From contig ONHA01000021.1 in NCBI GenBank assembly GCA_900317515.1, forward strand, positions 1 to 64,000: a stretch of 64,000 nucleotides of DNA, read 5' to 3'. Under the pieces are notes generated by a model. It did not search any database and was not told the origin of the DNA. It was given only the letters and a program-made list of their open reading frames with translations. Shown here one piece after another: positions 46,141-61,600 of this stretch (the first letter of the stretch is position 1; every line of letters begins with the position of its first letter). The translations under genes and the position numbers were made by a program. The stretch comes from an uncultured Eubacteriales bacterium (GTDB taxonomy: Bacteria; Bacillota; Clostridia; Lachnospirales; Lachnospiraceae).

Positions 46141-46142
46141 GT

Positions 46143-47357
46143 ATGGCAGAGAAAAAACTGACGAAAAATCTGATCTTTCTGATGTATTTTGTGACCATGA
46201 CCATCCTGCTTCTCAACTGCACGGACAATCTTCCGATCACATTCCAGCTCAGAAAAATAAAATACCTGTTTATCGCGCTTCTCATAGCGGATTTCATTTT
46301 CTCGGGTGATTATCTCGTCTCGAAGGTCTCGGCGTATGTGATCATCGGCTTCGCCGTCCATGCGCTGGTGTTCTGCCTGCTCTTTACCAATCAGAGGGTG
46401 GCCATGGACACCTATCTGCACCTCCGGGAGATGATCATCTATCTTGTCATGCTCTTTTTCCTGGTCAACGCGGTCGAGCGGTATCACGCGCTGACTCTCT
46501 TTACGGAGCTCACGGCCGTCTCGCTCATGGTCTTTCTTCTCTGGACCGGTTTCACCCACCTTCAGGATTTCGTCGCGCCCCGGTACTGGCTGCTCGTCTT
46601 TCTCCGGGACGCCCGCGTGCGGCACGAGTTCGGCCTGGTCCAGTACAACTACGCCGGTTTTTTCTGCACGGTCGGTCTCATCATCTTCTATACGGTATAC
46701 AGACTGCATGAGAGGGCGGGGCGCGTTACCTACGGGGAGGCGGCTGCATTTTTTGCGATGGAGCTCTACACGGGCGCCATCCTTCTTTCGACAGGCTCCC
46801 GCGGCTCCATTCTCATGGCGGCGGTCTTTTTTGCGACTGCGTTCGTGCGGAGCAGGACCTTCCGGGAGCTCGGCCGGCGGCGATACGTTGTCGTGCTCCT
46901 CATGCTCTTTTTCGCGGGCGTTATCCTGTATGCCAACCGGTCCTTCCTGAACGCCCAGGGCACCCGGCTTGAGAATTTCACGGTCAACTGGCCCTTCTTC
47001 CTTGAGGAGGGGCGCTACTTCACGGGGATGGGCTACATGGAGAGCTCGGCCTTCATCGACCAGTCCTACGGCTACGCGACCTGGCCGGTCGATATCTATT
47101 ACCTCTATATTTTCTTCTCGACGGGCATACTCGGTTTTCTTATGGTTATGGCGATCCTGCTCTTTCTCTTTGCAAGGCTTGCAAAGGACCACAGCTGGTT
47201 CATCTACAACATCAGCTTTCCGCTCTACCTCGCGTCGCTCGTGAGCGCGCTGGGCCAGGTCAATCTCTTTACCTACCGCTATATCGCGGCGCTCTTTACC
47301 GCGGTTCTGTTTCTTGCGCCCTTCGGCATTGAGGGCAGAAGGGAAGCCGGGCGATGA
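46143..47357 (+). CDS. Wzy-like polysaccharide polymerase (O-antigen ligase/polymerase family)
   Basis: This 404-residue membrane protein has about ten helices and a large polar loop around residues 265-305 (FLNAQGTRLENFTVNWPFFL, then EEGRYFTGMGYMESSAFID). Such loops and the preceding STGSRGSIL are typical of Wzy/WaaL proteins. It would polymerise lipid-linked repeat units outside the membrane. The start at 46143 has GGAG upstream; its stop overlaps the flippase start. Sequence in this family is poorly conserved, so the call rests on topology and context. Confidence 0.8.
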   Translation: MAEKKLTKNLIFLMYFVTMTILLLNCTDNLPITFQLRKIKYLFIALLIADFIFSGDYLVSKVSAYVIIGFAVHALVFCLLFTNQRVAMDTYLHLREMIIYLVMLFFLVNAVERYHALTLFTELTAVSLMVFLLWTGFTHLQDFVAPRYWLLVFLRDARVRHEFGLVQYNYAGFFCTVGLIIFYTVYRLHERAGRVTYGEAAAFFAMELYTGAILLSTGSRGSILMAAVFFATAFVRSRTFRELGRRRYVVVLLMLFFAGVILYANRSFLNAQGTRLENFTVNWPFFLEEGRYFTGMGYMESSAFIDQSYGYATWPVDIYYLYIFFSTGILGFLMVMAILLFLFARLAKDHSWFIYNISFPLYLASLVSALGQVNLFTYRYIAALFTAVLFLAPFGIEGRREAGR

Positions 47358-48874
47358 GTGAGTCAAGGACAACGAAGGCAATGCGGAACATCCGCTTCGG
47401 AATGGGTCTTATGCTGGTCACGACACTGCTCTCCTTTGCCGTGCGCACCGTGCTCATACGGGCGGTCGGCATCGAGCTTGTAGGCCTGAACGGGCTCTTC
47501 ACCGAGGTGATCGGAGCGCTCTCCTTAGCGGAGCTCGGGGTCGGCTCATCGATCGCCTACAGCCTCTATGCACCGCTCGCGGAGGGAAATGAAGAGCGTG
47601 TATCCCAGCTCATGCAGATCTACAGGCGGGCCTACACGGCGATTGCCGGGGTGACGCTTATTCTGGGCCTTGCCATCACGCCCTTTGTGCACCTCATGGT
47701 GCGAAAGGTGGACATCCCGGTATCCTACATCCGGATCGTCTACGTGCTCTTCGTAGTGCAGCTCTCGTCCTCCTACCTCTTTTCCTACAAGACGGCCCTC
47801 TTAAACGTCGACCAGAAGAACTACATCTTCTCCTTCGTGCAGGGGTGCGTGAAGATCGCGGGGACGATCCTGCAGCTGGTCCTGGTTGCCCTGACGAAGA
47901 ATTATCTCTTCTATGTGGCGGGGCTTATCTTCATTTCCCTCGCGACCAACGTGATCTGCGCGCGGATCGCCGACCGGCAGTATCCCTGCCTTGCCATGAA
48001 GACCGATCCGCTGCCTCCGGAGGAGAGAAAACACGTCTTTGCCAACATGCGGGACATCTTCATCAAGAGCGTCTCGGGAAAGATTACGGGCTCGACCGAT
48101 AATATTCTCATATCAACGTTGATTTCCACCGCACTTGTGGGGTATTATACCAACTATAATCTGGTATTTAATGTGGTGAGGACATTTGCCGCGCTCATCT
48201 ACGGCGGCGTGGTGAACAGCGTCGGCAACATGATGGCGACCGAGAGCGACGAGCGCTCGGAGGAGGTCTTCAGGAAGCTTTCCTGGTTCTTCTATGCGGC
48301 TGCCGCGGTGTGCTCGGCCTGCATTTTCACCTGCATGGAGCCGTTTGTCCGCCTCTGGCTCGGGGAGGATTTTCTTCTGCCGACCGGCGTTCTCTTTGTG
48401 ACATCGCTGGTCATCTTCCTCGAGGTCGCGACGAAGCCGCTCTGGCTCATCATGGAGGTTTCCGGGCTCTTTTCGAGGGATAAATACGCCTCGATCATCG
48501 GCTCGGCGGTCAACCTTGTCACGTCGATCGTGCTGGGACTTCGGATCGGGATGGCGGGCATCTTTATCGGGACCTGCCTCACCTACGCGATCCAGTTTGC
48601 CATGAAGGCGTACTTTCTATACCGCCTTAAGTGGAATAGATCCCCGATGCGGTACTGCCTGACATTTGCGGGGAGAACGGCGCTTCTTGTGGCCCTTATG
48701 CTGGCGGCGCGTGCGGTGACGGACCGCCTGCCCGTGACCGGCGATCTTCCGGCATTTCTGATAAACGGATGTCTTACGGCGGGGGCCGCAGCAGCGGTCC
48801 TCATCGGCACGAGTGCGGGAACGCCCGAATTTGCCTATGCGAAAGAACTGATCATTAAGAGACTGCGAGGATAG
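47354..48874 (+). CDS. Wzx-like polysaccharide flippase
   Basis: This 506-residue protein has 12-14 transmembrane helices and features of the PST/MATE-like exporters: LLSFAVRTVLIRAVGIELVG, LNGLFTEVIGALSLAELGVG and SYLFSYKTALLNVDQKNYIF. It would flip lipid-linked oligosaccharides across the membrane. It is coupled to the polymerase gene by a four-base overlap and followed after two bases by a glycosyltransferase. Confidence 0.9.
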   Translation: MSESRTTKAMRNIRFGMGLMLVTTLLSFAVRTVLIRAVGIELVGLNGLFTEVIGALSLAELGVGSSIAYSLYAPLAEGNEERVSQLMQIYRRAYTAIAGVTLILGLAITPFVHLMVRKVDIPVSYIRIVYVLFVVQLSSSYLFSYKTALLNVDQKNYIFSFVQGCVKIAGTILQLVLVALTKNYLFYVAGLIFISLATNVICARIADRQYPCLAMKTDPLPPEERKHVFANMRDIFIKSVSGKITGSTDNILISTLISTALVGYYTNYNLVFNVVRTFAALIYGGVVNSVGNMMATESDERSEEVFRKLSWFFYAAAAVCSACIFTCMEPFVRLWLGEDFLLPTGVLFVTSLVIFLEVATKPLWLIMEVSGLFSRDKYASIIGSAVNLVTSIVLGLRIGMAGIFIGTCLTYAIQFAMKAYFLYRLKWNRSPMRYCLTFAGRTALLVALMLAARAVTDRLPVTGDLPAFLINGCLTAGAAAAVLIGTSAGTPEFAYAKELIIKRLRG

Positions 48875-48876
48875 GG

Positions 48877-50724
48877 ATGGAGAAGATTCCCCATATAATC
48901 CATTACTGCTGGTTTGGTCCGAAAAAGCCGCCCCGGGTGGAGCGGTTTATCGCCGACTGGAAAAAGAAGCTTCCGGACTACACCTTCATGGAGTGGAATG
49001 AGGAGAATACGGATATAAGCGGGTGCGCCTACGCACGGGAGGCGCTTTCGGCGGGCAAATACGCCTTCGTCTCCGACTATGTGCGGGTGAAGCGCCTTGT
49101 CGAGTACGGCGGCGTCTACATGGACACCGACGTGAAGATCATCCGCCGGTTCGATGAGTTTCTTCAGGGTGCCGGCGCGGTCCTCTCCATGGAGCGGCCC
49201 GGGTGCCTTTCGACCGCCTTTATGGCGGCGGCCCCCGGACAGGCGCTTTTTGCGGAGTTTCTCGCCTCCTACGAGGAGCGGCACTTTATAAAAAGCGACG
49301 GGACGGAGGACCTCACGACGATCAATGACGCTCTGACCGCCCTCTTTGTGCGGCACGGCCTGATCGGCCGGGCACGGGAGACGGAGGTCCTGCCCGGAAA
49401 TGTATATATCTACCCGCCGGAATACTTCTCGGCGTTCGACATGGACTACTGGAACCCCGAGGTCACGGAGAACACGCGGACTGTGGAGACGGAGAAGCCG
49501 GGGGAGAACGAAAGCGTTGTCTTAAAGCTCCTCGGTCACCTGCTCTTTAAGGCTCCCTTTGAGGCGGAGGCAGGCACCGACTGGGCGGCGGTCTTCGGGG
49601 AAATGAAAAACCACGCGCTCGCCCTCCTTGCGGCGGACATGCTTTCCGATCTGCCCCTGCCCGAAGATGTCCGGCGCGATTTTGAGGATGAGTCGATGGC
49701 GGCCTTCGGCCGGAACGCGCTGATGCGGTACGGGCAGGATGATCTTGTGCGGGTGCTCTCAGATGCCGGGATCCGTTTTGCGATCCTCAAGGGGAACGCG
49801 GCGGGCATCTATTATCCGGTCCCCGAGTACCGGGTATCCGGCGACGTCGACGTGATCGTGTCCGGGGAGGATTTCGAGAGAGCCTGCGCCGTTCTCCGGG
49901 AGAACGGCTTCAGGGACGCCTTCACGGAGCAGAATACAGACCGCCACCTCAACTTTGAGAAGGACGGGATCCAGTTTGAGGTGCACAGGCGGTTTTCATT
50001 TGTCAACGACCCGAAGACGGCGCTGAGAATCGATGCGCTCATCGAGAGGGGACTTATGAAGACGAAGACCGTCCGGATCGGCGGCTCCGCGTTCCCGGTG
50101 CTCCCGGAGGCCCTGAACGGGCTTGTGCTGCTCCTCCATATCGGGCAGCACCTGGAGACGGGGCTCGGACTCCGGCAGATCCTGGACTATCTGATGTTTG
50201 TCCGCGCCAGAGTGGACGACTCCTTCTGGGAGCGGAAAATGAAGCCCCTGACCGAAGCCGTGGGCCTGACCGAACTCGCCGTCACCGTGACGAGGCTCGG
50301 ACAGCTCTATTTCTCCCTTCCGGAGGAGGGGCACGCGTTTGCCCTCTCCGGGGACGATAAGGCGGCCCGTGAGCTCATGAGGATCGTGCTCTCCGACGGA
50401 AATTTCGGGCGCAAGGACGCCGAGCGGGTCAATGCGGTCCGCATTTTAAGTGCCGGTCTTACGGTGAGGGGATTTTTCGGAAACCTTGAGAGCGCGGGTC
50501 TTGCCAACTGGAAGGCGGCCCGGCGGCATCATTTCTTAAGGCCGTTCGCGTGGATCTACCAGTTTTGCCGCTATGTCTCCCAGCTCATTGCCACGAGGCA
50601 TACGCCGGCGGGGTTCTTTGAGGAGATCAGGGAGACCGGAAGGCGGGCCGTGCTTCTTAAAAAGCTGCATGTCACCCGCAGGTCGAGAGGCATCGTATCT
50701 TCGAGAAGGGATAAGAGACTATGA
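48877..50724 (+). CDS. GT32-type glycosyltransferase fused to a nucleotidyltransferase-5 domain
   Basis: This 615-residue protein has two parts. Residues 1-235 are a DXD-containing GT32/OCH1-like transferase (PHIIHYCWFGPKKPPRVERF, VSDYVRVKRLVEYGGVYMDTD with DTD at 83-85). From about residue 285 to 480 lies a domain like uncharacterised nucleotidyltransferase family 5: ILKGNAAGIYYPVPEYRVSG with GDVDVIV near 322, and the later FEVHRRFSF and LVLLLHIGQHL. That family often sits beside PqqD and HprK-like genes, and here both lie downstream. The join has no frameshift. The product is likely cytoplasmic. Confidence 0.82.
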   Translation: MEKIPHIIHYCWFGPKKPPRVERFIADWKKKLPDYTFMEWNEENTDISGCAYAREALSAGKYAFVSDYVRVKRLVEYGGVYMDTDVKIIRRFDEFLQGAGAVLSMERPGCLSTAFMAAAPGQALFAEFLASYEERHFIKSDGTEDLTTINDALTALFVRHGLIGRARETEVLPGNVYIYPPEYFSAFDMDYWNPEVTENTRTVETEKPGENESVVLKLLGHLLFKAPFEAEAGTDWAAVFGEMKNHALALLAADMLSDLPLPEDVRRDFEDESMAAFGRNALMRYGQDDLVRVLSDAGIRFAILKGNAAGIYYPVPEYRVSGDVDVIVSGEDFERACAVLRENGFRDAFTEQNTDRHLNFEKDGIQFEVHRRFSFVNDPKTALRIDALIERGLMKTKTVRIGGSAFPVLPEALNGLVLLLHIGQHLETGLGLRQILDYLMFVRARVDDSFWERKMKPLTEAVGLTELAVTVTRLGQLYFSLPEEGHAFALSGDDKAARELMRIVLSDGNFGRKDAERVNAVRILSAGLTVRGFFGNLESAGLANWKAARRHHFLRPFAWIYQFCRYVSQLIATRHTPAGFFEEIRETGRRAVLLKKLHVTRRSRGIVSSRRDKRL

Positions 50725-51551
50725 AGTATTTGAGAATACTCCTTTTTGCGCTGCTTGCCGTGTCGATCGCGGCATTCGGCGTGGCAAAGGTACAGGAGAT
50801 TTCCGCGAGAAATGCCCATGTGCCGGTAATTGAGAGTGAGGATGGAACGCTGGAGCTCCCCTGTGATTACACGGAGGAGGAGCTTCTTGCCGGCGTGTCC
50901 GCCTTTGACGAGGAGGACGGCAACCTGACGGACAAGATCCTGGTCGGGTCATTTTCCCGTTTTGTCGAGCAGGGGACCTGCACGGTCACCTATGTCGTGT
51001 TTGACAGCGCAAATGCGGCGGCGACCTGCACGAGAAAGGTGCATTTTACGGATTACGAATCGCCGAGGATCCTCCTTTCTGAGCCGCTGGTCTTTACGGC
51101 CGGAAGCGGTTCCACCGATGAAGTGCGGGACCGCCTTCTCATCGAGGACAAACTGGACGGAAATCTGGCCGGGACGGCCCGGTTCTCCAACATCAGCGTC
51201 TACTATGATTATGAGGGCAGCTATTCCCTCACGGTGACCGCCTCGAACAGCTTCGGCGACACGGTGAGCGAGACGCTGCCGATCCATATCATCGACAAGC
51301 GGCTGACCGGTCTCATGATCTCCCTTTCCCAGCCGGTCGTCTACATCCCGAAGGGGAGCGGTTTTGAGCCGATGTCCTATGTGACCGGTGTCCGGGACCT
51401 GGGCGGGATCGCCTACACGGCGGAGGATCATGTGACGTGCGAGACGGACGTCGACACGTCGGTGCCCGGCGTCTACGAGGTTCGCTACGATGCGTCGAAT
51501 GCCGGCGGCTCGGTCGGCACAACCTGGCTGACAGTCATTGTGGAGGAGTGA
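50721..51551 (+). CDS. Exported protein with Ig-like (DUF5011-type) domains
   Basis: This 276-residue protein has an N-terminal signal or anchor (LRILLFALLAVSIAAFGVAK) followed by three tandem beta-sandwich repeats of about 80 residues. These show patterns such as GVSAFDEEDGNLTDKILV, TCTVTYVVFDSANAAATCTR and GVYEVRYDASNAGGS. These match bacterial Ig-like/DUF5011 domains of surface proteins. The start overlaps the previous gene's stop. It may hold or guide the polymer at the cell surface; the exact role is unknown. Confidence 0.78.
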   Translation: MKYLRILLFALLAVSIAAFGVAKVQEISARNAHVPVIESEDGTLELPCDYTEEELLAGVSAFDEEDGNLTDKILVGSFSRFVEQGTCTVTYVVFDSANAAATCTRKVHFTDYESPRILLSEPLVFTAGSGSTDEVRDRLLIEDKLDGNLAGTARFSNISVYYDYEGSYSLTVTASNSFGDTVSETLPIHIIDKRLTGLMISLSQPVVYIPKGSGFEPMSYVTGVRDLGGIAYTAEDHVTCETDVDTSVPGVYEVRYDASNAGGSVGTTWLTVIVEE

Positions 51552-51552
51552 G

Positions 51553-52920
51553 ATGAACCAGAGAATTACGGAAGGAAGCATGAGCCTCCGGGGATTTGTG
51601 AAGGATGTTCTCCGCAATTTCTGGATGGTGGTGCTCTCGGGCGTCATAGTGTTTTTCGGCCTGACGGGTGCGGCCGGGCTCACGGAGAAGCCGGTCTACG
51701 AATCGAAGGCTACGCTCGTCATCAGTTCAAAGGAGAGCTACAGCTCGCTGACATCCCTGCAGACCGCGGCCCAGATGGCGGCAGTCTTCAGCGAGGTGTT
51801 TCAGAGCGATTCACTGAAGAAAAATATCATGGAGACGGCAGGCGAGGAGATGAACGTGGATATCACCTGCCGGCAGGTCGAGGCGACCAACCTTCTCGCG
51901 CTCACGGCAGCCTCCGAGAATCCGCGCCACGCCTACCTCATGCTGCGCGCGGCCATCGAGAATTACGGGGAGGTGTCCGGCTACGTGTTCGGGCAGGCCG
52001 ACCTCGTCGTGCTCACACCGCCGGATGTCCCGACGGAGCCCGCCCAGCGGACGACGCTTCTTTCCTACCGGAAGATCCTGATCCCGGCCGCGATGCTCCT
52101 CATGGTATTCGTGATCGGCCTCTTTTATCTCTTCCGCTTCACGGTTAAGACTACCCGCGGGGCGAGACGGCAGCTGGAGGGGACGATCCTCGGGACGATC
52201 CCGTTTGAGAAGTCCGTCTTCGGCCGCGGCAGAAAGAACACGAGGCACCTGATCGGAGGGGCCTCCTCGACGATGGCATTTTCCGAATCCGTCCGCAGGG
52301 CGGCCCAGAACATCCAGCAGCACATGAACAAGAAGGAGGCGAAGGTCCTGCTGGTCACCTCGGCGACGCCGAACGAGGGCAAGACCATGACTGCCGCCAA
52401 TATCGCGGTCTCCCTGGCGGAGAAGAAGGCCAGAGTCCTCATCATCGACGGGGACTTCCTGAATCCCTCCCTGGGCAGGATCTTTGAGCCGGCTCCGGGA
52501 GCAGGCACGATCTCGGATATTCTCTCCGGGAAAATGAAACTCGGCGACGCGGTCTCCTACGACCGGAAATACCGCCTCTTCAAGCTCTACCAGGGCGACG
52601 GCCGGCAGGGACGAAACGCGGCGGGCGACCGGGACCGGATCGAGGCCATTGTGAACATCTGCAGGCGGGAGATGGACTACGTGATCATCGACAGCTCGCC
52701 CGTGACGGTCTCCGCGGACGCGGAGATGTGGATGGGCCTTTCCGACACGGCCCTCCTGGTCGTCCGGCAGGACTGGGCGGACGTCAGGATCATCAACGAT
52801 GCGGTCGACATGATCTGGACCAACACCGGCGATTTCACGGGGTTTGTCCTGAACGCGTTCGAACCCGAATGGGGAAGCGCGGGCAGATCGCAGCACTACG
52901 GTTATGAGAGCTACGCCTGA
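51553..52920 (+). CDS. Polysaccharide co-polymerase/BY-kinase fusion (first of two)
   Basis: This 455-residue protein has a Wzz-like region with two membrane helices (FWMVVLSGVIVFFGLTGAAG; ILIPAAMLLMVFVIGLFYLF) around an outside loop. A cytoplasmic tyrosine-kinase ATPase domain follows: Walker A TSATPNEGKTMTA, Walker A' VLIIDGDFLNPSLG and Walker B-like DYVIIDSSPV. The C-terminus has only a short Tyr group (YGYESYA). Such proteins set chain length through phosphorylation cycles. The start at 51553 follows GAGGAG. A second, related gene lies 21 bases downstream. Confidence 0.88.
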   Translation: MNQRITEGSMSLRGFVKDVLRNFWMVVLSGVIVFFGLTGAAGLTEKPVYESKATLVISSKESYSSLTSLQTAAQMAAVFSEVFQSDSLKKNIMETAGEEMNVDITCRQVEATNLLALTAASENPRHAYLMLRAAIENYGEVSGYVFGQADLVVLTPPDVPTEPAQRTTLLSYRKILIPAAMLLMVFVIGLFYLFRFTVKTTRGARRQLEGTILGTIPFEKSVFGRGRKNTRHLIGGASSTMAFSESVRRAAQNIQQHMNKKEAKVLLVTSATPNEGKTMTAANIAVSLAEKKARVLIIDGDFLNPSLGRIFEPAPGAGTISDILSGKMKLGDAVSYDRKYRLFKLYQGDGRQGRNAAGDRDRIEAIVNICRREMDYVIIDSSPVTVSADAEMWMGLSDTALLVVRQDWADVRIINDAVDMIWTNTGDFTGFVLNAFEPEWGSAGRSQHYGYESYA

Positions 52921-52941
52921 TTGGATACGGAAGGATAGGAC

Positions 52942-54423
52942 ATGGAGAGAGGAAGACAACACACGGAGGATGCGGGCCTTCGGGATTTCATAGATTTCGG
53001 CCAGCTGTTTCGGGACTTTCTGCGCTACCTGCGGAAATACTGGCACATCCTGCTCATTATGACCGTGCTTTGCGGCGCGGGCTACACGGCTTTCCGGATC
53101 GGCACGACGAAGCCTGTCTACCGGAGCGAGGCGACCTTCACGGTCGGCCTTGTCGGCGCGCAGAATTCAAATACATCCTATTATTATTCGACGACGGCTG
53201 CGGCCCAGATGTCGAGCACGTTCCCCTATATCCTGGAGAGTGATTATTTTAGGAGTCTTCTTCTGGAGGAGCTGGGGGAGAGCGAGCTCGGCGGCTCGAT
53301 CGGGGCTTCCGTGATCGAGAGCTCCAACATGGTCACCATGTCGGCGGAGGCGCCGACCGCGGAGGAGGCGGCGAGGATCCTGAAGGGGGCCATGGCGGTT
53401 TACCCGAAGGCGGCCTATTTCGTGCTCGGCAGCATTGAATTTTACGTGATCAACGCGCCGAACCTGCCCGAGACGCCCGTCAACGTGAGCTCTCCGGTGC
53501 GGCTGGCCGTGATCGGCGGGATCGCCGGCCTCTTTCTTGCCTGCTTTGTCATTCTGCTCCTCACGATCATCCGGCGCGATGTGCGCTCGGAGGAGGACGT
53601 GGCGAAAGTGTCGGATATGAAGCTTCTGGGTCAGCTTCCGCTCATCACCGGAAAGGCGAGGAGCACGGGGAGAGCCAGAAAGCTCTGGTCCGTGTTTGAT
53701 GAGCGGACCCCCTATGAGTACAGAGAGAGCATCCGTTCGCTGGCCGGACGTCTCCTCAACACGCTGCGTAGGATGGACGGCGAGGAAACGGAGAGCGGCG
53801 AGGGCAGAGTGATCCTCGTGACCGGCACGGCTCCGGGTGAAGGCAAATCGTCCCTGTCGGTCAATCTCGCGGAGGAGCTGACCCGCGAGGGCAAGAAGGT
53901 TGTCCTGGTGGATGCGGACCTCCGCAAGCAGGGCGATGCCGACCTCGTGGATGCCCCGGAGGATGCGATCGGCCTTGTGGATATCCTGTCCGGCGGTCGG
54001 GAGGTCTATGTAAAGAGGGCTCCGGCGGGGTTTGCATTTATCGGAAATGCACAGCGCGTCCTGAAGAACCCGGTCAGGCTCCTCTCCGACGAGCGCATGC
54101 ATGACGTGGTGGAGAGCCTCCGGAAGAGCGCCGACATCGTGATCTTCGACACACCGCCGGCGGGCGCTTTCCAGGATGCCTCCATTCTCGCACCTTACGC
54201 CGACGGGATCCTCTACGTGATCCGCTGCGGCGAGCTGACCCAGGACGAGCTCGGCGAGGCGCTCTACTCCCTCGCGGAATCGCCCGCCCCGCTTCTCGGC
54301 TACGTGCTGAACGCATGCCCGGAGTCGGAAGGCAGCTACGGCTACGGAAGGTACGGCTACGGCCGCTACGGTTATGGTTACGGGTACGGCTACGGGAAAA
54401 ACTACGGGTACGGAAAAGACTGA
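52942..54423 (+). CDS. Polysaccharide co-polymerase/BY-kinase fusion with Tyr-rich tail (second of two)
   Basis: This 493-residue protein has the same plan: two helices (YWHILLIMTVLCGAGYTAFR; LAVIGGIAGLFLACFVILLL), Walker A GTAPGEGKSSLSV, Walker A' VVLVDADLRKQGDADL and DIVIFDTPPAG. It ends in an extended Tyr/Gly tail (from about residue 465, many YGYG units), the autophosphorylated cluster of BY-kinases. Together with the first fusion it may form a mixed ring. The tail DNA is itself repetitive. It closes the first half of the locus. Confidence 0.9.
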   Translation: MERGRQHTEDAGLRDFIDFGQLFRDFLRYLRKYWHILLIMTVLCGAGYTAFRIGTTKPVYRSEATFTVGLVGAQNSNTSYYYSTTAAAQMSSTFPYILESDYFRSLLLEELGESELGGSIGASVIESSNMVTMSAEAPTAEEAARILKGAMAVYPKAAYFVLGSIEFYVINAPNLPETPVNVSSPVRLAVIGGIAGLFLACFVILLLTIIRRDVRSEEDVAKVSDMKLLGQLPLITGKARSTGRARKLWSVFDERTPYEYRESIRSLAGRLLNTLRRMDGEETESGEGRVILVTGTAPGEGKSSLSVNLAEELTREGKKVVLVDADLRKQGDADLVDAPEDAIGLVDILSGGREVYVKRAPAGFAFIGNAQRVLKNPVRLLSDERMHDVVESLRKSADIVIFDTPPAGAFQDASILAPYADGILYVIRCGELTQDELGEALYSLAESPAPLLGYVLNACPESEGSYGYGRYGYGRYGYGYGYGYGKNYGYGKD

Positions 54424-54463
54424 AAAAGTTTTTTAAAAATATATCGCATACTTGAAAAACATG

Positions 54464-54500
54464 TGCTATACTGACACTATCTGTAGGCAGGTGCCTGCAG
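54464..54500 (+). promoter_or_regulatory. Extended -10 promoter and leader hairpin of the PqqD-radical SAM operon
   Basis: TGCTATACT (54464-54472) is an extended -10 element. A hairpin CTGTAGGCA-gg-TGCCTGCAG follows at about 54481-54500. It gives the PqqD cassette its own start site within the polysaccharide locus. Confidence 0.5.
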
Positions 54501-54524
54501 TGTTTGGATTGCAGGCGGAGCGAT

Positions 54525-54791
54525 ATGAAGGTTAAAAGCGGATTTATACTTCGAAAGATAGGCTCAAAATACATGGCGGTCCCCGTCGGGGAGCGCACGC
54601 GGGACGTTCACGGCATGGTTGCCCTGAACGAGACGGGCGCATTTATCTGGCAGCTTCTTGAGGAGGATCGGACCGGGGAAGAGGTCATCGAAAAGATCCT
54701 TGAGGAGTACGATGTCGACCGTGAGACCGCAGCCGGAGCACTCGCCCGCTTTAAGGCGAAGCTGGCGGAGGAAGGGGTTCTCGGCGAATGA
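54525..54791 (+). CDS. PqqD-like peptide-recognition protein
   Basis: This 88-residue protein has the PqqD/RRE fold: an N-terminal beta hairpin (SGFILRKIGSKYMAVPVG), then VHGMVALNETGAFIWQLLEE with the family's N-x-T-(G/A)-x-x-(I/L)-W motif, and a closing helix with VDRETAAGALARFKAKLAEE. PqqD domains bind leader peptides and present them to radical SAM or other modifying enzymes. The ATG at 54525 has GGAG four bases upstream. Its stop overlaps the radical SAM start by four bases. Confidence 0.9.
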   Translation: MKVKSGFILRKIGSKYMAVPVGERTRDVHGMVALNETGAFIWQLLEEDRTGEEVIEKILEEYDVDRETAAGALARFKAKLAEEGVLGE

Positions 54792-55840
54792 GCGACTGTG
54801 ATTTTCTTGCGGGGACGCTGGATCATTTTACAGAGGAGCTTAAGGAGATTGCCCGGCGGGACGCGATCCCGGTGAACGGCATCTTCGAGCTCACCGCAAG
54901 ATGCAATTTCGACTGCCGCATGTGCTACGTGCACCTTACCCCCGACGAGATCCGGAAGCAGGGCCGCGAGCTCACGAATGCAGAGTGGCTTGCCATCGCC
55001 GAAAAGGCGAGGGAGCGCGGGATGCTCGAGCTCACGCTGACCGGCGGCGAGATCTTCGTCCGGAGGGACTTTCGGGAACTCTACACCGAGCTCAAGCAGA
55101 TGGGTTTTCTCATCAATCTCATGAGCAACGGGTATCTCGTCGATGAGCGGGTGATGGAATGGCTTGCCGAGGATCCGCCCTACGCGATGCGCTTTACGCT
55201 TTACGGCGCCTCCAACGAGACCTACCGGGCGGTGACCGGGATCCCGGACGGATTTGACCGCGTAAGCCATGCGATCGATCTTGTGAAAGAGGCTGATATC
55301 CCCTTCTATCTGATGGGGCTTATCATAAAGGAAAACAATGCGGACCTGCTGAAAATGTATGAGTTCGCAAGGGAAAAGAAGGTTTACTTCCGTCATTCCA
55401 TCGCGCTTGTGCCCCCGGTCAGGGGAGCGAAGCAGGACGCAGCGGCTCACCGGGTGGATTTCACAAAGTTTCCGAAGGAGGCTTTTAAGGATCTCCCGAA
55501 GGCGGAGAGGATCTACAGACATCATCCACGTCAGCTGCTTGACTGTGCACACTACCGGCGCGGGTTTGTCGTGACCTGGAACGGAAAGATGCAGCTCTGC
55601 AGCTTTCTCTCCGATCCGGCGGAGGATGTGAGGGAACTTGGCTTTGACAGGGCCTGGGAGAAGCTTCTTTCGGATCTTGAGCAGCTTCCCGAGCCGGAGA
55701 AATGCGGAACCTGCAGGTACGAAGGCTTCTGCAGACGATGTCCCGGGGTGCTGGCGGCGGAAAGCGGCAGTACCGGTCGGGTGACGGACTCTTACTGCAG
55801 GCAGGCAGAGTTTGTATATGGGATTTACCACAATGAGTAG
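54788..55840 (+). CDS. Radical SAM/SPASM peptide-modifying enzyme
   Basis: This 350-residue enzyme has the radical SAM motif at Cys39, Cys43 and Cys46 (ARCNFDCRMCYVH) and the TGGE SAM-binding strand at 85-88. Its SPASM domain has all seven cysteines: Cys253, then G-x4-Cys271, Cys306-x2-Cys309-x5-Cys315-x2-Cys318 and Cys337. Such enzymes carry auxiliary Fe-S clusters and make C-S, C-C or other links in peptides, or oxidise them. Overlap with PqqD shows they work together. The likely substrate is the next gene product. Confidence 0.92.
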   Translation: MSDCDFLAGTLDHFTEELKEIARRDAIPVNGIFELTARCNFDCRMCYVHLTPDEIRKQGRELTNAEWLAIAEKARERGMLELTLTGGEIFVRRDFRELYTELKQMGFLINLMSNGYLVDERVMEWLAEDPPYAMRFTLYGASNETYRAVTGIPDGFDRVSHAIDLVKEADIPFYLMGLIIKENNADLLKMYEFAREKKVYFRHSIALVPPVRGAKQDAAAHRVDFTKFPKEAFKDLPKAERIYRHHPRQLLDCAHYRRGFVVTWNGKMQLCSFLSDPAEDVRELGFDRAWEKLLSDLEQLPEPEKCGTCRYEGFCRRCPGVLAAESGSTGRVTDSYCRQAEFVYGIYHNE

Positions 55841-55852
55841 GAGGAGCAGATA

Positions 55853-56218
55853 ATGAAAAGAACATTTGAGGAGCCGGAAGTCAGGAAGATTCTGATCAAC
55901 CTCAGGGAGAGCATTGCCGACGGTTCCGGCGGTCCGGATGCCCATGTCTCCATCATTTTTGCGACCGTGCAGGCGATGGCAGGCTGCACCGACCTGATCA
56001 ATGACACGCTGCCGAATCCGGGTGTTATTTCCGGAAATACGCTCATGGATTGGATCATCGCAAATGCGGCCGCCCTTGCGAATTGCTCGACGATCGGCGT
56101 GGAGCCGGAGACGAACGTGCGGCTTTTCGCAGCGGCACCGGCGCAGACCGGCGGCAGGGGAACCGTGGTCTACGATGTGCCGAAGGATATCGCGGATACC
56201 TACGGCATGAAGTATTGA
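55853..56218 (+). CDS. Unknown 121-residue protein, candidate precursor or substrate of the radical SAM enzyme
   Basis: I recognise no family. The first residues, MKRTFEEPEVRKILINLRES, contain F-x-x-P-x-V, close to the Y-x-x-P-x-L leader motif bound by PqqD-like RREs. Then come a Gly-rich turn (ADGSGGPDAHV), a hydrophobic middle with two Cys (QAMAGCTDL; AALANCSTIGV) and a C-terminal part ending in YGMKY. It begins 13 bases after the radical SAM stop, with GGAG upstream, and is followed by a hairpin terminator. It is larger than usual RiPP precursors, so a partner protein is also possible. Confidence 0.65.
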   Translation: MKRTFEEPEVRKILINLRESIADGSGGPDAHVSIIFATVQAMAGCTDLINDTLPNPGVISGNTLMDWIIANAAALANCSTIGVEPETNVRLFAAAPAQTGGRGTVVYDVPKDIADTYGMKY

Positions 56219-56252
56219 TGCCGTCTTCAAAAGCTGAATATACCGACACCGT

Positions 56253-56294
56253 AAAGAATCCTGCTTTGACACTGGGCGGCAGGATTCTTTCTTG
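56253..56294 (+). terminator. Terminator or attenuator after the candidate precursor
   Basis: AAAGAATCCTGC and GCAGGATTCTTT form a 12-bp stem, followed by CTT and T-rich bases. It stands between the precursor-like gene and the ABC gene, where partial read-through would favour high precursor expression. Confidence 0.75.
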
Positions 56295-56319
56295 TGCTTA
56301 AGGGGTTGTAAGGCAAAGG

Positions 56320-58089
56320 ATGAACACAGCCGGGAAAATAAGAGGCAAACTGAACAGGGAAAAGACGGGGGCTTTCCTCTCGGAGATGCGCTGGCTTGCC
56401 GGCTACAGCTGGAAATACCGCCTTCGGATGGTCTGGTACGCCCTGTGCGGGCTCATCAGCACGGGCCTTGGCCTCGCCGGGTCGGTCATCAGCAAGCATA
56501 TCATCGATGCGGTGACCGGGGCTGACTCGGGAGGGCTTGTTCTGGCGGTTGCCTTCTACGTGTTCTCCCAGGTAACATCCATCGCGATGAATGCGGCCGG
56601 AAGCAGGATCTCCGCAAAGATCAGTATCGATGTCGAGCAGGAGATCCGGGCGGATGTCTATGACAAGGTCATGAACGCGGACTGGCAGGCGATGACCCGC
56701 TTCCACTCGGGCGACATCATCACCCGCGTCGAGGGGGATGTCGGAACCGTCTCGGGCACCGTGCTCACCTGGCTGCCGAACCTTGTGACAAGGCTGATCC
56801 AGCTTGCCGGCGCGTTCTTTATCATTTTTCGCTATGACCGCATGCTGGCGGTCCTGGCGCTCCTCACCGCGCCGATCTCCCTCCTGCTCTCGAGGGTCGT
56901 TCTCCCCCGCATGAAGCGCTACAACGAGGAGATGCGGCAGATGAACGCAGAGATGATGGTATTCAAGGAAGAGTCTTTCCACAACCTGGAGAGCCTGAAA
57001 TCCCTGGGACTCACCCGGGCTTACGGAGAGAAATTCCGTTCTGTCCAGAAAAAATACCGCACCATGCGGCTTGACTACAATGCATTTACGATCCTGACTC
57101 AGGCGCTCATGTCGGGAGCGGCCATGCTGGTCGGGCTCGTCTGCTTCATCTGGGGCGTCTACCGCCTCTGGAGCGGCGCGATCACCTACGGAACGATGAC
57201 GCTGTTCCTGCAGATGGCCTCCCAGCTCTCGTCCTCCTTCTCCGTCCTGGCCGGCATGGTTCCGGGCATGATCCAGGCGGCGACGGCGGCCGGCCGCATC
57301 ATCGCGGTCACGGAGCTGCCCGAGGAGAAAAATGAAGACCGCGAAGCCTCCGAAGAGCTCCTTCATGAGAACCCGGACGGCATGGCGGTCTTTATGCGCG
57401 GCGTGACATTTCGCTATGCGGGCGGCGGAACCGTATTTGAGCAGGCGGACCTTGAAGCCCGCCCGGGCCGGATCATCGGGGTCATAGGCCCTTCGGGCGG
57501 CGGCAAGACGACGCTTATGCGGCTGCTTCTCGGGATCGTTGCCCCCGAAAAAGGGGAACTGTACGCCGAGGGAGCGACAACCGGCGGAAGACTGACTGTT
57601 TCCGCATCGACGAGAAATTTATTTTCCTATGTACCCCAGGGCAACACCATGCTGACCGGAACCGTGGCGGAGAATCTCCGCGTCATGGATGGGAAGGCGG
57701 ATGAGGGCAGACTCATCGAGGTGCTCCGCCGGGCGGGTGCGTATGATTTTGTCGCGGCGAAGCCCGAGGGGCTTGACGCGAAGGTGAGGGAGCGCGGCGG
57801 CGGCTTCTCCGAGGGCCAGATCCAGCGGCTTGCGATCGCGCGGGCGCTGCTTTCCGACGCGCCGGTCCTGCTGCTCGACGAGGCGACCAGCGCGCTCGAC
57901 CCGGAGACGGAGCGGCTCGTGCTCGCGGGGATCCTCGGGTTTGACAGGACAAAGACCGTGATCGTGACGACCCATCGCCCGTCGGTCCTCGGCTCCTGCG
58001 ATGCGGTTTACCGGATCGCGGACGGGACGATACGGGAGATCGCAAGAGAGGAAGCTGTTCGGCTTATGGAGGGGCAGGAAGAAAAATGA
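56320..58089 (+). CDS. ABC exporter (fused permease and ATPase)
   Basis: This 589-residue protein has a six-helix type IV exporter permease (residues 20-310) and an ATPase domain: Walker A GPSGGGKTTLMRLL, signature FSEGQIQRLAIARAL and Walker B VLLLDEATSALDPE with a closing HRPSVL switch His. There is no C39 peptidase at the N-terminus, so any leader removal would need another protease. Its stop overlaps the kinase start by four bases. It probably exports the modified peptide or a lipid-linked product. Confidence 0.92.
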   Translation: MNTAGKIRGKLNREKTGAFLSEMRWLAGYSWKYRLRMVWYALCGLISTGLGLAGSVISKHIIDAVTGADSGGLVLAVAFYVFSQVTSIAMNAAGSRISAKISIDVEQEIRADVYDKVMNADWQAMTRFHSGDIITRVEGDVGTVSGTVLTWLPNLVTRLIQLAGAFFIIFRYDRMLAVLALLTAPISLLLSRVVLPRMKRYNEEMRQMNAEMMVFKEESFHNLESLKSLGLTRAYGEKFRSVQKKYRTMRLDYNAFTILTQALMSGAAMLVGLVCFIWGVYRLWSGAITYGTMTLFLQMASQLSSSFSVLAGMVPGMIQAATAAGRIIAVTELPEEKNEDREASEELLHENPDGMAVFMRGVTFRYAGGGTVFEQADLEARPGRIIGVIGPSGGGKTTLMRLLLGIVAPEKGELYAEGATTGGRLTVSASTRNLFSYVPQGNTMLTGTVAENLRVMDGKADEGRLIEVLRRAGAYDFVAAKPEGLDAKVRERGGGFSEGQIQRLAIARALLSDAPVLLLDEATSALDPETERLVLAGILGFDRTKTVIVTTHRPSVLGSCDAVYRIADGTIREIAREEAVRLMEGQEEK

Positions 58090-58952
58090 AAAGCTGGTTC
58101 CGTATCGCCGGAAAAAACATCCTCATAGAAGGCGCCGGCAGCAGGGCAAGACGTTTCTTCCGGGGCTTCGAGTCCGGGGAGGGCGAGCCGTTCATGACAT
58201 TTAAGGCAGAGCTTCCCGGTGAGGAAGCAATATCGAGCGGATCCGAGGAGGAGCTCCTCTTCGGCCTTCGGGTGACATACATGGAAGGTTCCTGGCCCTG
58301 GAGATTCGACGCCAGGCAAAGCTCCCGCGAGTATCTGCTCGCTTCCTCTGATTTTACATCCTGCCGGATCATTTCCAAACCGATCATCACGGGTGAGATG
58401 CCGGATGATCCCGCCGACGAGCCCCGCTGGAGGGGCCTCATCCTCGGCGCGATGGCGGCAAAGGGAGCGCTCTCCGGCATGCTCCTCGCCCATGCCTCCG
58501 CGGTGGAATACGAGGGGGAGGCAGTCATCTTTACGGCTCCGTCCGGGAGCGGCAAGACGACGCAGGCCGAGCTCTGGAACAGGTATCTTAAGGCGCGGAT
58601 CCTGAACGGGGACAAGGTGTTCATTTCCCGGGAGGAGGACGGATTTTACGCGTACGGCTCCCCCTGGGCGGGCTCATCGCCCTACCGGGAGAACCACGGG
58701 GCTCCGATGCGGGCCGTCATCGTCCTTCAAAAGGGGGAGAAAAATGAAATCCGGCGCCTTCGAGGCGAGGAGCTCCTCCGCTTCTTTGTTCCGAACATCT
58801 TTCTTCCCTACTGGGAGGGGACGCTTCTTGACGCGGCGCTCGGAACGCTGGACGCCCTTGTCTCAGCCGTTCCGGTGTACCTTCTCACCTGCCGCGCGGA
58901 CGAGGAGGCGGTCCTCCTCACAAAAAAGGCTGTTTTCGGGGATCAGATGTGA
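58086..58952 (+). CDS. HprK-like serine kinase family protein
   Basis: This 288-residue protein has the HPr-kinase core: MLLAHASAVEYEGEAVIFTA followed by the P-loop APSGSGKTT (151-159), then LNGDKVFIS with an acidic residue. The N-terminal 120 residues do not match true HprK. Relatives (HprK-related kinases) phosphorylate lasso peptides in paeninodin-type clusters or occur with PqqD in polysaccharide loci. Overlap with the ABC gene ties it to the export step. The substrate is unproven. Confidence 0.85.
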   Translation: MKSWFRIAGKNILIEGAGSRARRFFRGFESGEGEPFMTFKAELPGEEAISSGSEEELLFGLRVTYMEGSWPWRFDARQSSREYLLASSDFTSCRIISKPIITGEMPDDPADEPRWRGLILGAMAAKGALSGMLLAHASAVEYEGEAVIFTAPSGSGKTTQAELWNRYLKARILNGDKVFISREEDGFYAYGSPWAGSSPYRENHGAPMRAVIVLQKGEKNEIRRLRGEELLRFFVPNIFLPYWEGTLLDAALGTLDALVSAVPVYLLTCRADEEAVLLTKKAVFGDQM

Positions 58953-58972
58953 CCCCGCTGGAGATGTAAGCG

Positions 58973-59983
58973 ATGCATATTTCCGGTAAAATAAAAAAAT
59001 ATATGCGGCGAAGCGCCGACGAACTTCTTTTTTCGCGCGAGCTCGCCGAAAAGTATTCCCTGCGGGATTCGGCGGTCGTCCTCGCGGCCAAGGCCGATAT
59101 CCAGAGGAGTGTCCGCTCGGGCAACCTCGAGACGCCGGCCATGAGGCGGCGGCTCATGTACAAGCACAGGGTGATGAGCCGCTATTTTGCGGAGGAGTTC
59201 GGGGAATTCCTTCGGAGGTATGATTTCGGGAAGGCGCTCCCGCCGGCGGATCCGGCTTTTGAGGATACGATCTGGGTCCTCTGGTGGCAGGGAGAAGAAA
59301 ATGCCCCGGAGACCGTTAAAAAGTGCCTCGCCTCCGTGCGGCGCTGCGCGGGAGACCACCCGGTGGTCCTCCTTGACGAGCGGAACTTCCGCGATTACGT
59401 GACCGTACCGGACTGGGCCACGGAGAGACTTTCGGCCGGGTCGATCTCGGTCACGCATGTGTCGGATATCATCCGGATAACGCTTCTTGCGGAAAAAGGC
59501 GGGCTCTGGCTCGACTCGACGATCCTCTGCACCGGAAGCCTTGAGGAAGCATTTGCTCACCCGGTCTGGTCGATCCGCCGCCCGGGATATCTTCATCTTT
59601 CGCCCGCCTGCGGGCGGTTTGCCAATTATGCGCTCTCGGCCAGGGGCGAGGGGAGACGTTCATTTTCCATCATAAGAGACCTCCTTTATCACTACTGGGA
59701 GACGACGGCGAGGATGAACGACTATCTGTTCCTCGACTACCTGATCCTGCTTGCGCAGCACGCGGATGCGCGGACGCGGGAGCTCTTCCGGGCGATCCCG
59801 GCCAACAATCCGCGGTGCGACGACCTTCTCATAAACTTCGGACAGGCCTTTGACGCCGAAGCCTGGGAGGAAATGAAAAAAGACACGCAGCTCTTTAAAC
59901 TGACCTGGAAGCTGAATTTCAGGGAGGAAAAGCAGGGCAGAACCACATTCTGCGGGATGATGCGGAGAGGAGAACTGTTTTAA
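58973..59983 (+). CDS. Capsular polysaccharide synthesis glycosyltransferase (GT32-like)
   Basis: This 336-residue protein has the PF05704-type pattern: DTIWVLWWQGEENAPETVKK near residue 98, VTHVSDIIRITLLAEKGGLW and the DST motif in LDSTILCTG in place of DXD, as usual in this family. The C-terminus is basic. It probably adds a sugar to the glycan or to the modified peptide. It starts 20 bases after the kinase gene. Confidence 0.82.
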   Translation: MHISGKIKKYMRRSADELLFSRELAEKYSLRDSAVVLAAKADIQRSVRSGNLETPAMRRRLMYKHRVMSRYFAEEFGEFLRRYDFGKALPPADPAFEDTIWVLWWQGEENAPETVKKCLASVRRCAGDHPVVLLDERNFRDYVTVPDWATERLSAGSISVTHVSDIIRITLLAEKGGLWLDSTILCTGSLEEAFAHPVWSIRRPGYLHLSPACGRFANYALSARGEGRRSFSIIRDLLYHYWETTARMNDYLFLDYLILLAQHADARTRELFRAIPANNPRCDDLLINFGQAFDAEAWEEMKKDTQLFKLTWKLNFREEKQGRTTFCGMMRRGELF

Positions 59984-59984
59984 A

Positions 59985-60548
59985 ATGGGTAAGATAAGGC
60001 GCCTTAGCCGCAACCAGATGCGGGTACTTAAGGGGATTTGTTTTTTCGTGGACATGAGATTCCGGACAAAGCTGCTGAAAAAGCTGCATATCTTCGCCGG
60101 ATTCGGGGAGGACTGTGTCTACGGTTCCAGAAACATTCCGGAAGAGCCCTATATGATAAAGATTCACAATAACGTGTTCATCACGCCGGAGACGATCTTT
60201 CTGCCGCACGACAGCATTCCCGAGATGCTTGCCAGAATGAAGAATGTAAAGCCCGGCACGGTCTTTCCTGAGTATCACATGGGCACGATCGAGGTGTTTG
60301 ACAACGTCTTCATCGGCACGGGCAGCCTGATCCTGAACGGCGTGAAGATCGGGCCGAACGCGATCGTGGCCGCGGGCAGCGTGGTCACGAAGGACGTCCC
60401 CGAGGGGACGATCGTGGGCGGCAACCCGGCGAAGGTAATCGGAACGGTGGACAACTTCATCGAGAAGAGAAAGAAAATGATGGACCGTCCGATCGACCGG
60501 GATCCGCTCTCGAAGATCATGAAATATTACTGGGGTGAGAAGCACTGA
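59985..60548 (+). CDS. Hexapeptide-repeat acyltransferase
   Basis: This 187-residue left-handed beta-helix protein has turns such as IEVFDNVFIGTGSLILNGVK, IGPNAIVAAGSVVTKDVPEG and TIVGGNPAKVIG, the signature of O-acetyltransferases (the Maa/VatD/LbH group). An insertion at 70-90 carries HDSIPEMLARM. It would acetylate a sugar hydroxyl. It lies one base after the upstream stop and shares TGATG with the next gene. Confidence 0.88.
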   Translation: MGKIRRLSRNQMRVLKGICFFVDMRFRTKLLKKLHIFAGFGEDCVYGSRNIPEEPYMIKIHNNVFITPETIFLPHDSIPEMLARMKNVKPGTVFPEYHMGTIEVFDNVFIGTGSLILNGVKIGPNAIVAAGSVVTKDVPEGTIVGGNPAKVIGTVDNFIEKRKKMMDRPIDRDPLSKIMKYYWGEKH

Positions 60549-61600
60549 TGGCAGCGGCAGCGGTTCTTTTTGCGGCGGCAATCCTTCTTTCCGCAAGGAA
60601 AAAGACAGGGGGAGAGTGGCTTTCCAGGGAGGACACGTCGGCGCTTCGGGGCGTCATGGCGGTTTTTATCCTGTTTGTCCATCTCCCGGACGTATGCTCT
60701 TTCCTGAATGAAAACTATGCGGCGACGTTTGAGCCCTTTATATTCCAGGGGCACCTCGCCGTCGGTCTCTTCTTTGCGCTCTCCGGCTACGGACTGGCCC
60801 TCTCTGCGGAGAAAGGCTTCTCCGGGTTCTTCCGAAGACGGTTTTTCGAGGTGCTTCTGCCCTATTTTCTCTGCAATCTTGTCTTTCTCTTTGCCATCAG
60901 GGCCGGGGGAAAGGAGATCGGCATGCTTGACATGCTCGGTTCCTGGTTTACCGGGGACCCGATGGTCACCTACAGCTGGTACGTTGTCACCCAGCTTATT
61001 TTCTATGTGTTCTTTTATATAGCCTTCCGGTGCTTTAACGGCCGGGCGATGAAGATCGCCGCGCTCTACATATTCGTATCGGTCTATATGCGCTGGGCTC
61101 CGCACTTCGGATGGCCGCTGGTCACGACGCGGGGGTGCTTCTGCTTTGTCCTCGGGGCTTCTGTCGGCGCCTTGAAGAGAGAGATCGACATGATCCTGGC
61201 CCGGAGAAAGACCGGACTCATGCTGGCTGTTTCGGGAGTTCTCTTCCTGATCTCCCATGTTCTCTATTTTGCGGTTCCGCTTATTAAGGAGACTCCCCTT
61301 TTTGACGGCTCGTCCGTTTTCTTCGTGGTTTTCATTTTCCTCCTAAACCGTGTTTTTGTGCTTGCTCCGCCTTTCTTTCACGTGCTGGGAAAGTGCAGCC
61401 TCGAGATCTACCTCTACCAGAATCTTGCCTTTATCCTGATGAGAAGGGTCTTTGTCATGCTGGGGTCGGACAATGTGTTTGCCTACGCGTGCGCCTCGAT
61501 TGCGTTTGCGGCGGCGGGGGCGGCAGCGGTTCATTTTGCATACGGCACCGTGAAGGGGCTTCTTGTGAAATTTCCCGTTTTTCAGGATAAATCTGCCTGA
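60548..61600 (+). CDS. Acyltransferase 3 family membrane protein
   Basis: This 350-residue protein has about ten helices and the acyltransferase-3 features: EDTSALRGVMAVFILFVHLP with the conserved Arg and His of the catalytic R/H pair, GHLAVGLFFALSGYGLALSA and FFRRRFFEVLLPYFLCNLVF. It moves acyl groups across or at the membrane onto the polysaccharide. With the hexapeptide enzyme it indicates an acetylated polymer. It is the last gene of the locus. Confidence 0.88.
   Translation: MAAAAVLFAAAILLSARKKTGGEWLSREDTSALRGVMAVFILFVHLPDVCSFLNENYAATFEPFIFQGHLAVGLFFALSGYGLALSAEKGFSGFFRRRFFEVLLPYFLCNLVFLFAIRAGGKEIGMLDMLGSWFTGDPMVTYSWYVVTQLIFYVFFYIAFRCFNGRAMKIAALYIFVSVYMRWAPHFGWPLVTTRGCFCFVLGASVGALKREIDMILARRKTGLMLAVSGVLFLISHVLYFAVPLIKETPLFDGSSVFFVVFIFLLNRVFVLAPPFFHVLGKCSLEIYLYQNLAFILMRRVFVMLGSDNVFAYACASIAFAAAGAAAVHFAYGTVKGLLVKFPVFQDKSA

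Follow-up and report, generated by a model that had tools for sequence, protein, structure and literature searches.

An uncultured Eubacteriales bacterium of the family Lachnospiraceae carries, inside a polysaccharide locus, five plus strand genes that raise the question of what they make together. The genes lie at 54525-58952 of the window, by which we mean the whole stretch of 64,000 nucleotides analysed here (contig ONHA01000021.1, positions 1 to 64,000, of a 2.7-Mb assembly in 79 contigs), and encode a PqqD-fold protein, a radical SAM/SPASM enzyme, a 121-aa open reading frame (ORF), an ATP-binding cassette (ABC) exporter and an HprK-like kinase. An earlier note had read 54464-58952 as a candidate new system making a radical-SAM-modified, phosphorylated and perhaps glycosylated peptide. 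Our analysis indicates that the genes probably form a cassette for a ribosomally synthesised and post-translationally modified peptide (RiPP), a radical-SAM-bearing relative of the linear polyphosphorylated peptides (LPPs) and of the paeninodin-type lasso peptides, functionally tied to one type of exopolysaccharide export. What the sequence itself supports is the gene set, the co-conservation of the genes, the precursor leader, the type of RiPP recognition element (RRE), the kinase fold and the co-occurrence with Wzc. Coordinates are collected in Table 1.

The 121-aa ORF is very probably the precursor peptide, since its leader, FEEPEVRKILINLRESIADGS, has the [F/Y/W]xxP motif common to precursors elsewhere and a leave-out leader model ranks it first in the genome. 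Seven precursors from other genomes went into the model, neither own-genome sequence being among them, and it was searched against the whole 2.7-Mb genome; the window ORF was the best match (E 2.4e-5), followed by the ORF of the second cassette on contig C73 (7.2e-4) and then by noise (0.86). A simple motif scan (32 sequences) matched 19/86 small ORFs near a radical SAM gene versus 49/1712 elsewhere, and was less clean than the leader model; two or more of the 19 are apparently chance matches, and some six of the 49 seem to be precursors that accompany other modules. In many relatives a small ORF adjoins the radical SAM gene at the same place. No Pfam or NCBIfam family matched the window ORF, and ten small ORFs from relatives gave no matches to these databases except three weak ones, all for locus L010. 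The predicted structure of the precursor had a predicted local distance difference test score (pLDDT) of 42.9 and was not used.

All 21 picked precursors in our leader table have the aromatic-xxP motif, and it should be noted that this motif and the Ser or Cys at position 20 or 21 were selection criteria for most rows. Counted from the aromatic residue, position 17 is Ile or Val in 21/21, position 15 is Glu in 16/21 and position 18 is Ala in 16/21; a Ser (13) or Cys (8), partly selected for, stands at position 20 or 21 in every precursor. At L072 two precursors agree at 19/21 leader residues versus 17/63 core residues (27%; shuffled cores reach a mean of 20% and a maximum of 30%), and such near-identical leaders with divergent cores are the usual mark of a RiPP. 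One could still imagine a cassette with no peptide product, in which the radical SAM and kinase-like proteins tailor exopolysaccharide sugars and the 121-aa protein is an accessory subunit. This would suit a locus rich in glycan genes, but the leader detected by the leave-out model, the pattern at L072, the small ORF at the same place beside the radical SAM gene in many relatives and an RRE of lasso/LPP type make it highly improbable.

This RRE is the product of the "PqqD" gene, which seems to resemble the discrete RREs of lasso peptides and LPPs. A profile of 12 PqqD-type relatives matches the lasso B1 proteins TbiB1 (3.1e-10, so that a discrete B1-type RRE as in lasso peptides is found here) and TfuB1 (1.4e-6), and the PDB entries 9x90 (5e-6) and 9x8z (2.6e-5), which perhaps originate in the LPP study, with PqqD itself (3g2b) merely at 0.56. 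The protein scores 34.6 bits against NF033536, under the cut-off of 80. The seven-Cys SPASM radical SAM enzyme of the earlier note is confirmed by its cysteines, as CX3CX2C and the seven SPASM Cys are invariant in 14/14 aligned sequences, though the Pfam SPASM model gives 13.1 bits, under its cut-off of 21.5; among the best 25 of the 72 NCBIfam models matched, none is above cut-off. The features by which a radical SAM/SPASM RiPP is recognised, namely CX3CX2C with SPASM Cys, an RRE and a precursor with a leader, are all present in the sequence.

The HprK-like kinase is weak by sequence and upheld by its predicted fold. Its two Pfam matches are to P-loop families, both far under cut-off, and TIGR04352 gives 18.0 bits versus a cut-off of 200. 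The predicted model matches PEPCK (best 4.8e-7) and HprK/P (6.3e-5 to 2.2e-4) with modest TM-scores; PEPCK and HprK/P have a common fold, and the model has an HprK/PEPCK-like one. At L019 one fusion protein contains both an HprK-like and a PqqD domain, a direct link between kinase and RRE; judged by phmmer labels, L014 seems similar.

The earlier note would have fallen had homologues of the five genes been scattered; instead, the genes for RRE, radical SAM enzyme, small ORF, HprK and ABC recur together and co-diverge, and by sequence comparison this set is co-conserved. Forty loci were gathered (16 + 20 + 4), and 35 were counted after removal of two distant hits (L024, L025) and three duplicates (L022 of L021, L080 of L011, L081 of L012); three loci of the own genome also stand outside the count. 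Gene labels came from phmmer with window and relative proteins, and loci were examined for 20 of the 24 other genomes with a radical SAM match. An RRE gene lies within 3 kb of the radical SAM gene in 25 of the 35 loci, HprK within 3 kb in 26 and ABC within 6 kb in 23, and the exopolysaccharide partners Ig and Wzc lie within 10 kb in 19 and 18. Several misses fall at contig ends. L086 is a 4.4-kb contig, and L077 and L080 end near the radical SAM gene. Across the 18 loci having all seven genes, distances correlate with those of the radical SAM enzyme for HprK (0.93), RRE (0.90), ABC (0.79), Wzc1 (0.73), Wzc2 (0.70) and Ig (0.70), and 0/2000 permutations reach any of the six correlations.

The tie to exopolysaccharide export was followed in 396 genomes of the family, own included, at a threshold of E 1e-50; the best few candidates per genome were scored, and counts are lower bounds. 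The radical SAM enzyme is present in at least 25 and Wzc1 in at least 39 of the 396. With the own genome excluded, 22 of the 24 genomes with the radical SAM enzyme also have Wzc1, where 2.3 would be expected (hypergeometric p 8.6e-24, a value from which genome relatedness is not removed), and in 14 of the 22 the two genes are on one contig, at most 12.5 kb apart. For three of the other eight the Wzc contigs were examined. Those of G428 and G230 begin with HprK and ABC, as if a contig end had cut the cassette, so an assembly break fits as the cause of the split linkage; a simple cut does not fit G159, where the Wzc contig begins with ABC and the radical SAM contig continues 8 kb past HprK with sugar-type genes and no ABC. 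As a control, the Caps_synth gene just downstream of HprK has no match at the same threshold in the other 395 genomes, which shows only that the whole island is not common, because such glycosyltransferases diverge fast. Among class-level genomes 3/290 besides our own have a match, and in G484, from another family of the class, both cassettes adjoin Ig-Wzc-Wzc.

The same data bear on the idea of a secreted antimicrobial or competition peptide merely riding in a variable glycan island, with functionally unrelated exopolysaccharide genes. Such a peptide would account for the highly variable cores, the patchy distribution among congeners, the several such modules in the genome and the ABC-type exporter. 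Still, the co-occurrence of Wzc1 (22/24) far exceeds that of the neighbouring Caps_synth (0/395) and Wzc1 divergence tracks that of the radical SAM enzyme (r 0.73), hence it is not the island as a whole to which the cassette is tied, and we regard this explanation as unlikely while giving it some weight. A RiPP cassette tied in function to one Wzc type is what we consider probable, and the peptide may have a role in the exopolysaccharide itself.

The gene set described in the earlier note stands: the five adjacent ORFs are found, as are the two pairs with four-base overlaps (ATGA, in PqqD/radical SAM and in ABC/HprK). The cassette's own promoter does not, as the sigma-70 scan gave no call ahead of the first cassette gene; by eye the only extended -10-like element there is TGCTATACT near 54464. 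The interval ahead of the RRE gene also holds a perfect-looking hairpin, CTGTAGGCAGGTGCCTGCAG (window 54481-54500); calls of this kind are about as frequent in the region as chance predicts (5 against 4.7). The proposed extent covers the gene set and is too short for the unit, which begins at least at 48877 and takes in, ahead of the cassette, the gene for a glycosyltransferase-NTP_transf_5 fusion and the genes of an Ig-Wzc1-Wzc2 block. The unit is thus larger than had been given, and it is nearer to a published family.

The closest known system is the LPPs (lpp cluster, Paenibacillus alginolyticus), and the main text of their description gives several points of likeness: a discrete RRE, an HprK-like kinase, an NTP transferase, an MsbA-like transporter, an aromatic-xxP leader, a Ser near the core start and a capsular polysaccharide setting (Popov et al. 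2026, PMC13381572). In that account the RRE holds the aromatic-xxP leader and the HprK-like kinase adds phosphates to a Ser close to where the core begins, the polyphosphorylated residue being Ser3 of the core; the NTP transferase may act later, and LppN gave no activity (PMC13381572). Here the kinase and the discrete RRE are indicated by predicted fold and RRE profile, and besides the MsbA-type transporter there is an NTP transferase domain (PF14907) in the ORF at 48877-50724, six kb upstream. The differences are a radical SAM/SPASM enzyme, the term "radical SAM" occurring nowhere in the main text of the LPP paper, and a leader of the form FxxP...ESIA instead of YxxPxVLxHQxIxFETxxS, the two having in common no more than the aromatic-xxP, one acidic residue and a Ser close to the end (PMC13381572). 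Further, NTP_transf_5 is here fused to a glycosyltransferase, and the genes examined at the window locus include no SpI-like peptidase such as that of the LPP cluster, whereas the related loci L010 and L071 have an S26-like one.

Phosphorylated lasso peptides of the paeninodin/pseudomycoidin type share the RRE (B1), the HprK-like kinase and the nucleotidyltransferase, and for pseudomycoidin a review reports that PsmN is required for hexoses on phospho-Ser, nucleotidyl transfer followed by a host glycosyltransferase not being excluded (PMC9266682). They differ by the macrolactam cyclase and B2 protease, in whose stead a radical SAM enzyme is found here (PMC9266682). As the earlier note had claimed, no lasso cyclase or transglutaminase-like B2 protease has a Pfam match among the genes examined at 43946-61600, one of which (47354-48874) has no family at all, and we reject a lasso peptide identity on these grounds. 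In the rumen lasso clusters of Butyrivibrio and Lachnospira, genes for HPr kinase, PqqD and an uncharacterised nucleotidyltransferase recur in related gut bacteria; they differ in encoding lasso maturation enzymes, with radical SAM unmentioned in the main text (PMC7533575).

By family matches, most parts of the cassette correspond to published LPP and paeninodin-type families, from which this variant differs by the added radical SAM enzyme. The "new" system of the earlier note has to be toned down accordingly; its inference largely stands, with support from leader and co-conservation. SynChlorMet cassettes combine PqqD-like, HprK-like and radical SAM/SPASM proteins, and the HprK-related kinase A/B families PqqD-like with HprK-like ones. 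The present genes share these pairings and differ in that the NCBIfam matches listed are far under cut-off (ScmC 15.9 vs 125, HprK_rel_A 18.0 vs 200, ScmE 63.4 vs 400). Two RiPP logics, radical SAM core chemistry and HprK/NTP-transferase phosphate-sugar tagging, are joined in this cassette, and the strong genome-level co-occurrence ties both to one Wzc type in a large gut bacterial family. Among open-licence papers, preprints excluded, we found none that describes the two together, which is weak evidence of absence.

We infer the chemistry as follows, every step and the order of the steps included. The RRE (54525) would bind the FEEP leader of the 121-aa precursor (55853) and hand it to the radical SAM/SPASM enzyme, which would change the precursor core; with such an enzyme added to an LPP-like set, the change is likely to be a bond in the core, for instance a thioether or a carbon-carbon link. 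The HprK-like kinase would phosphorylate the Ser just past the leader (Ser25), and a cut after IA would make Ser25 the third core residue as in LPP, a correspondence that is suggestive only. The glycosyltransferase-NTP_transf_5 fusion (DTD near residue 83, SGDVD near 323) is a candidate enzyme for adding a sugar or nucleotide to the phosphate of the peptide. The leader would then be removed, perhaps in trans by S26-like proteins encoded on contigs C39 and C25. Export of the product, beside the Ig-Wzc1-Wzc2 machinery, would fall to the MsbA-type ABC protein.

The sugar step in particular, which the earlier note had offered as a perhaps, gains some support from this fusion, a gene absent from its list; the peptide-glycan conjugate named with it is only a possibility. 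In such a conjugate the phospho-Ser would be glycosylated by the fusion enzyme and the modified peptide would be covalently part of the exopolysaccharide, its phosphodiester-linked sugar serving to prime or terminate the glycan that Ig-Wzc1-Wzc2 handles, or to anchor it at the cell surface. We think this quite unlikely. According to the main text of Popov et al., the role of LPPs in capsule loci is left open and LppN is suspected to need a partner outside the core cluster (PMC13381572); the fusion is a concrete candidate for that partner and makes the question testable.

Several observations weigh against a RiPP cassette tied to Wzc. At L072 and L090 there are cassette genes and neither Ig nor Wzc in the stretch examined; these loci belong to the two radical SAM genomes in which Wzc1 had no match (G090, G188), so the cassette can occur without Ig or Wzc. 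NTP_transf_5 is found within 8 kb in only 11/35 loci and an S26-like peptidase within 6 kb in only 12/35, and Pfam found no SpI-like leader peptidase among the genes examined at the window locus. The proposed phosphosite is Cys instead of Ser in 8/21 precursors, though several of those loci hold HprK genes; a Ser phosphosite as a universal rule is weakened by this count, the Ser or Cys being partly selected. The window precursor is unlike the others in its tail of about 43 residues after the last Cys. The co-divergence is uncorrected for species history, which is still contained in the correlations, and the cassette is patchy: none of 36 further genomes examined in the genus had a match at 1e-50, while five reached 1e-30.

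A different use of the peptide is suggested by regulators near some relatives. LytTR-type regulators lie within 5 kb in 6/35 loci, and at L012 (7178-9309; similar in L011, L075 and L081) a LytTR response regulator and a GHKL histidine kinase are encoded just upstream of the RRE gene, as confirmed by Pfam for L012 only. Such a pair near the RRE gene makes peptide signalling possible, and a peptide pheromone controlling exopolysaccharide expression through these regulators and sensor kinases could be proposed. Six of 35 is a minority, the window genes examined (43946-61600) include no LytTR/GHKL-type regulator, and HprK, NTP_transf_5 and a radical SAM enzyme exceed what, to our knowledge, the known Agr-type pheromones need; we find a pheromone improbable and retain the Wzc-linked RiPP cassette as the reading of this locus.

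Table 1. Positions in the window of the cassette genes, the upstream block and the hairpin, with supporting evidence
Feature	Position	Strand	Evidence and remarks
Glycosyltransferase (DXD) fused to NTP_transf_5 nucleotidyltransferase domain	48877..50724	+	PF14907 1.1e-37 (residues 234-479), PF04488 3.4e-11 (18-96)
Ig-like surface-type protein, first of Ig-Wzc1-Wzc2 block	50721..51551	+	PF16403 4.1e-16
Wzc1-like exopolysaccharide co-polymerase/autokinase	51538..52920	+	Wzz 5.7e-7, AAA_31 1.4e-7; TTG start as listed, ATG at 51553
Wzc2-like protein, Tyr-rich C-terminus	52942..54423	+	TIGR01007 109.7 bits, above cut-off; 11 Tyr in last 40 characters
PqqD-fold RRE, lasso/LPP-like	54525..54791	+	PF05402 9.1e-18; ATG start (mechanical TTG start 54504)
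Radical SAM/SPASM enzyme, proposed core modifier	54788..55840	+	PF04055 1.4e-21
Putative 121-aa precursor	55853..56218	+	AGGAGG upstream; leader about 55853-55918 (residues 1-22); proposed phosphosite Ser25 at 55925-55927
Hairpin, 12 perfect pairs, just 3' of precursor	56253..56290	+	0/2000 dinucleotide shuffles reach 12 pairs
MsbA-type ABC exporter without C39 peptidase domain	56320..58089	+	PF00664 2.1e-31, PF00005 3.5e-25
HprK-like kinase	58086..58952	+	P-loop residues invariant in 8/8; predicted model pLDDT 81.7 with PEPCK, HprK/P matches

Of the remaining proteins in the table, the Wzc1-like one scores 99.2 bits with TIGR01007, under the cut-off of 108.05, and the 13 Pfam families listed for the ABC exporter include no peptidase. 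The hairpin behind the precursor gene is a possible attenuator or terminator; whole-segment folding around it is unremarkable (z -0.99), and it is not among the terminator calls of the scan. In 13 other precursor flanks a clear likeness was seen only for L007, from the own genome (9 bp then T5), and L088 (11 bp then T3). Further upstream, 43946-47357 holds two glycosyltransferases and a weak Wzy_C match, the ORF at 47354-48874 has no family match in Pfam, and downstream of the cassette Pfam finds Caps_synth, hexapeptide protein and acyltransferase genes. Anti-phage defence was rejected, as the matches are to shared superfamily domains, viperin-like radical SAM over residues 33-127 (best 4.3e-14) and likewise the ABC/ATPase-type matches (best mad3 3.5e-27). 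Among 9 pattern matches tblastn gave no viral relatives.

Three further precursor types were seen beside radical SAM genes of relatives. The second (L011, L012, L073-L079, L082, L083, L085, L095) adjoins the radical SAM gene and combines a core motif resembling W...GF.G.GW with a Cys close to the C-terminus; its Trp and Cys columns are invariant in 12/12 aligned. The third (L084, L087, L088, L089, L090) has NEYVA.C or similar after an aromatic-xxP leader, with Cys in place of the others' Ser. The fourth is short (52-57 aa; L014, L016-L018, L019 8196-8387, L021), has a Y..P....EF.Y...V.AS-like leader and adjoins radical SAM relatives that are more distant, in some cases with no HprK in the vicinity. 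At L013 (316-7894) two HprK-radical SAM pairs stand in tandem on one contig with small ORFs nearby, no RRE gene being found there. Among 20 NTP_transf_5 ORF rows in the relatives' loci (about 14 distinct genes) none has a glycosyltransferase half. Proteins were labelled S26-like for their similarity to one another and for a GxSMxP motif, present in 15/16; of those put to Pfam, L010 is above the S24 cut-off, L019 is below it and L071 has no match.

The own genome holds five PqqD loci above cut-off, three of them with a radical SAM gene (the window and two on C73). The other two, L039 9665-13219 (C39, with ABC) and L040 8957-10462 (C25), combine PqqD and HprK with an S26-like protein and lack a radical SAM gene, an LPP-module-like layout in which no precursor was recognised. 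The S26-like proteins by phmmer are on C39 and C25, and the PF00717 matches in the genome are on C71 and C54. A further radical SAM relative, the fourth, is encoded on C67, where no partner gene was seen in the 16 kb examined. NTP_transf_5 is present three times, in the window, beside the first C73 cassette and on C30. As C73 ends with an N-terminal HprK piece and C30 begins with the C-terminal one, C30 would continue the second C73 cassette. Downstream of this split HprK-ABC pair on C30 (L038 4442-9374) lie two large ORFs of ABC type, perhaps another peptide exporter; by eye, the N-terminus of the first resembles a C39 peptidase.

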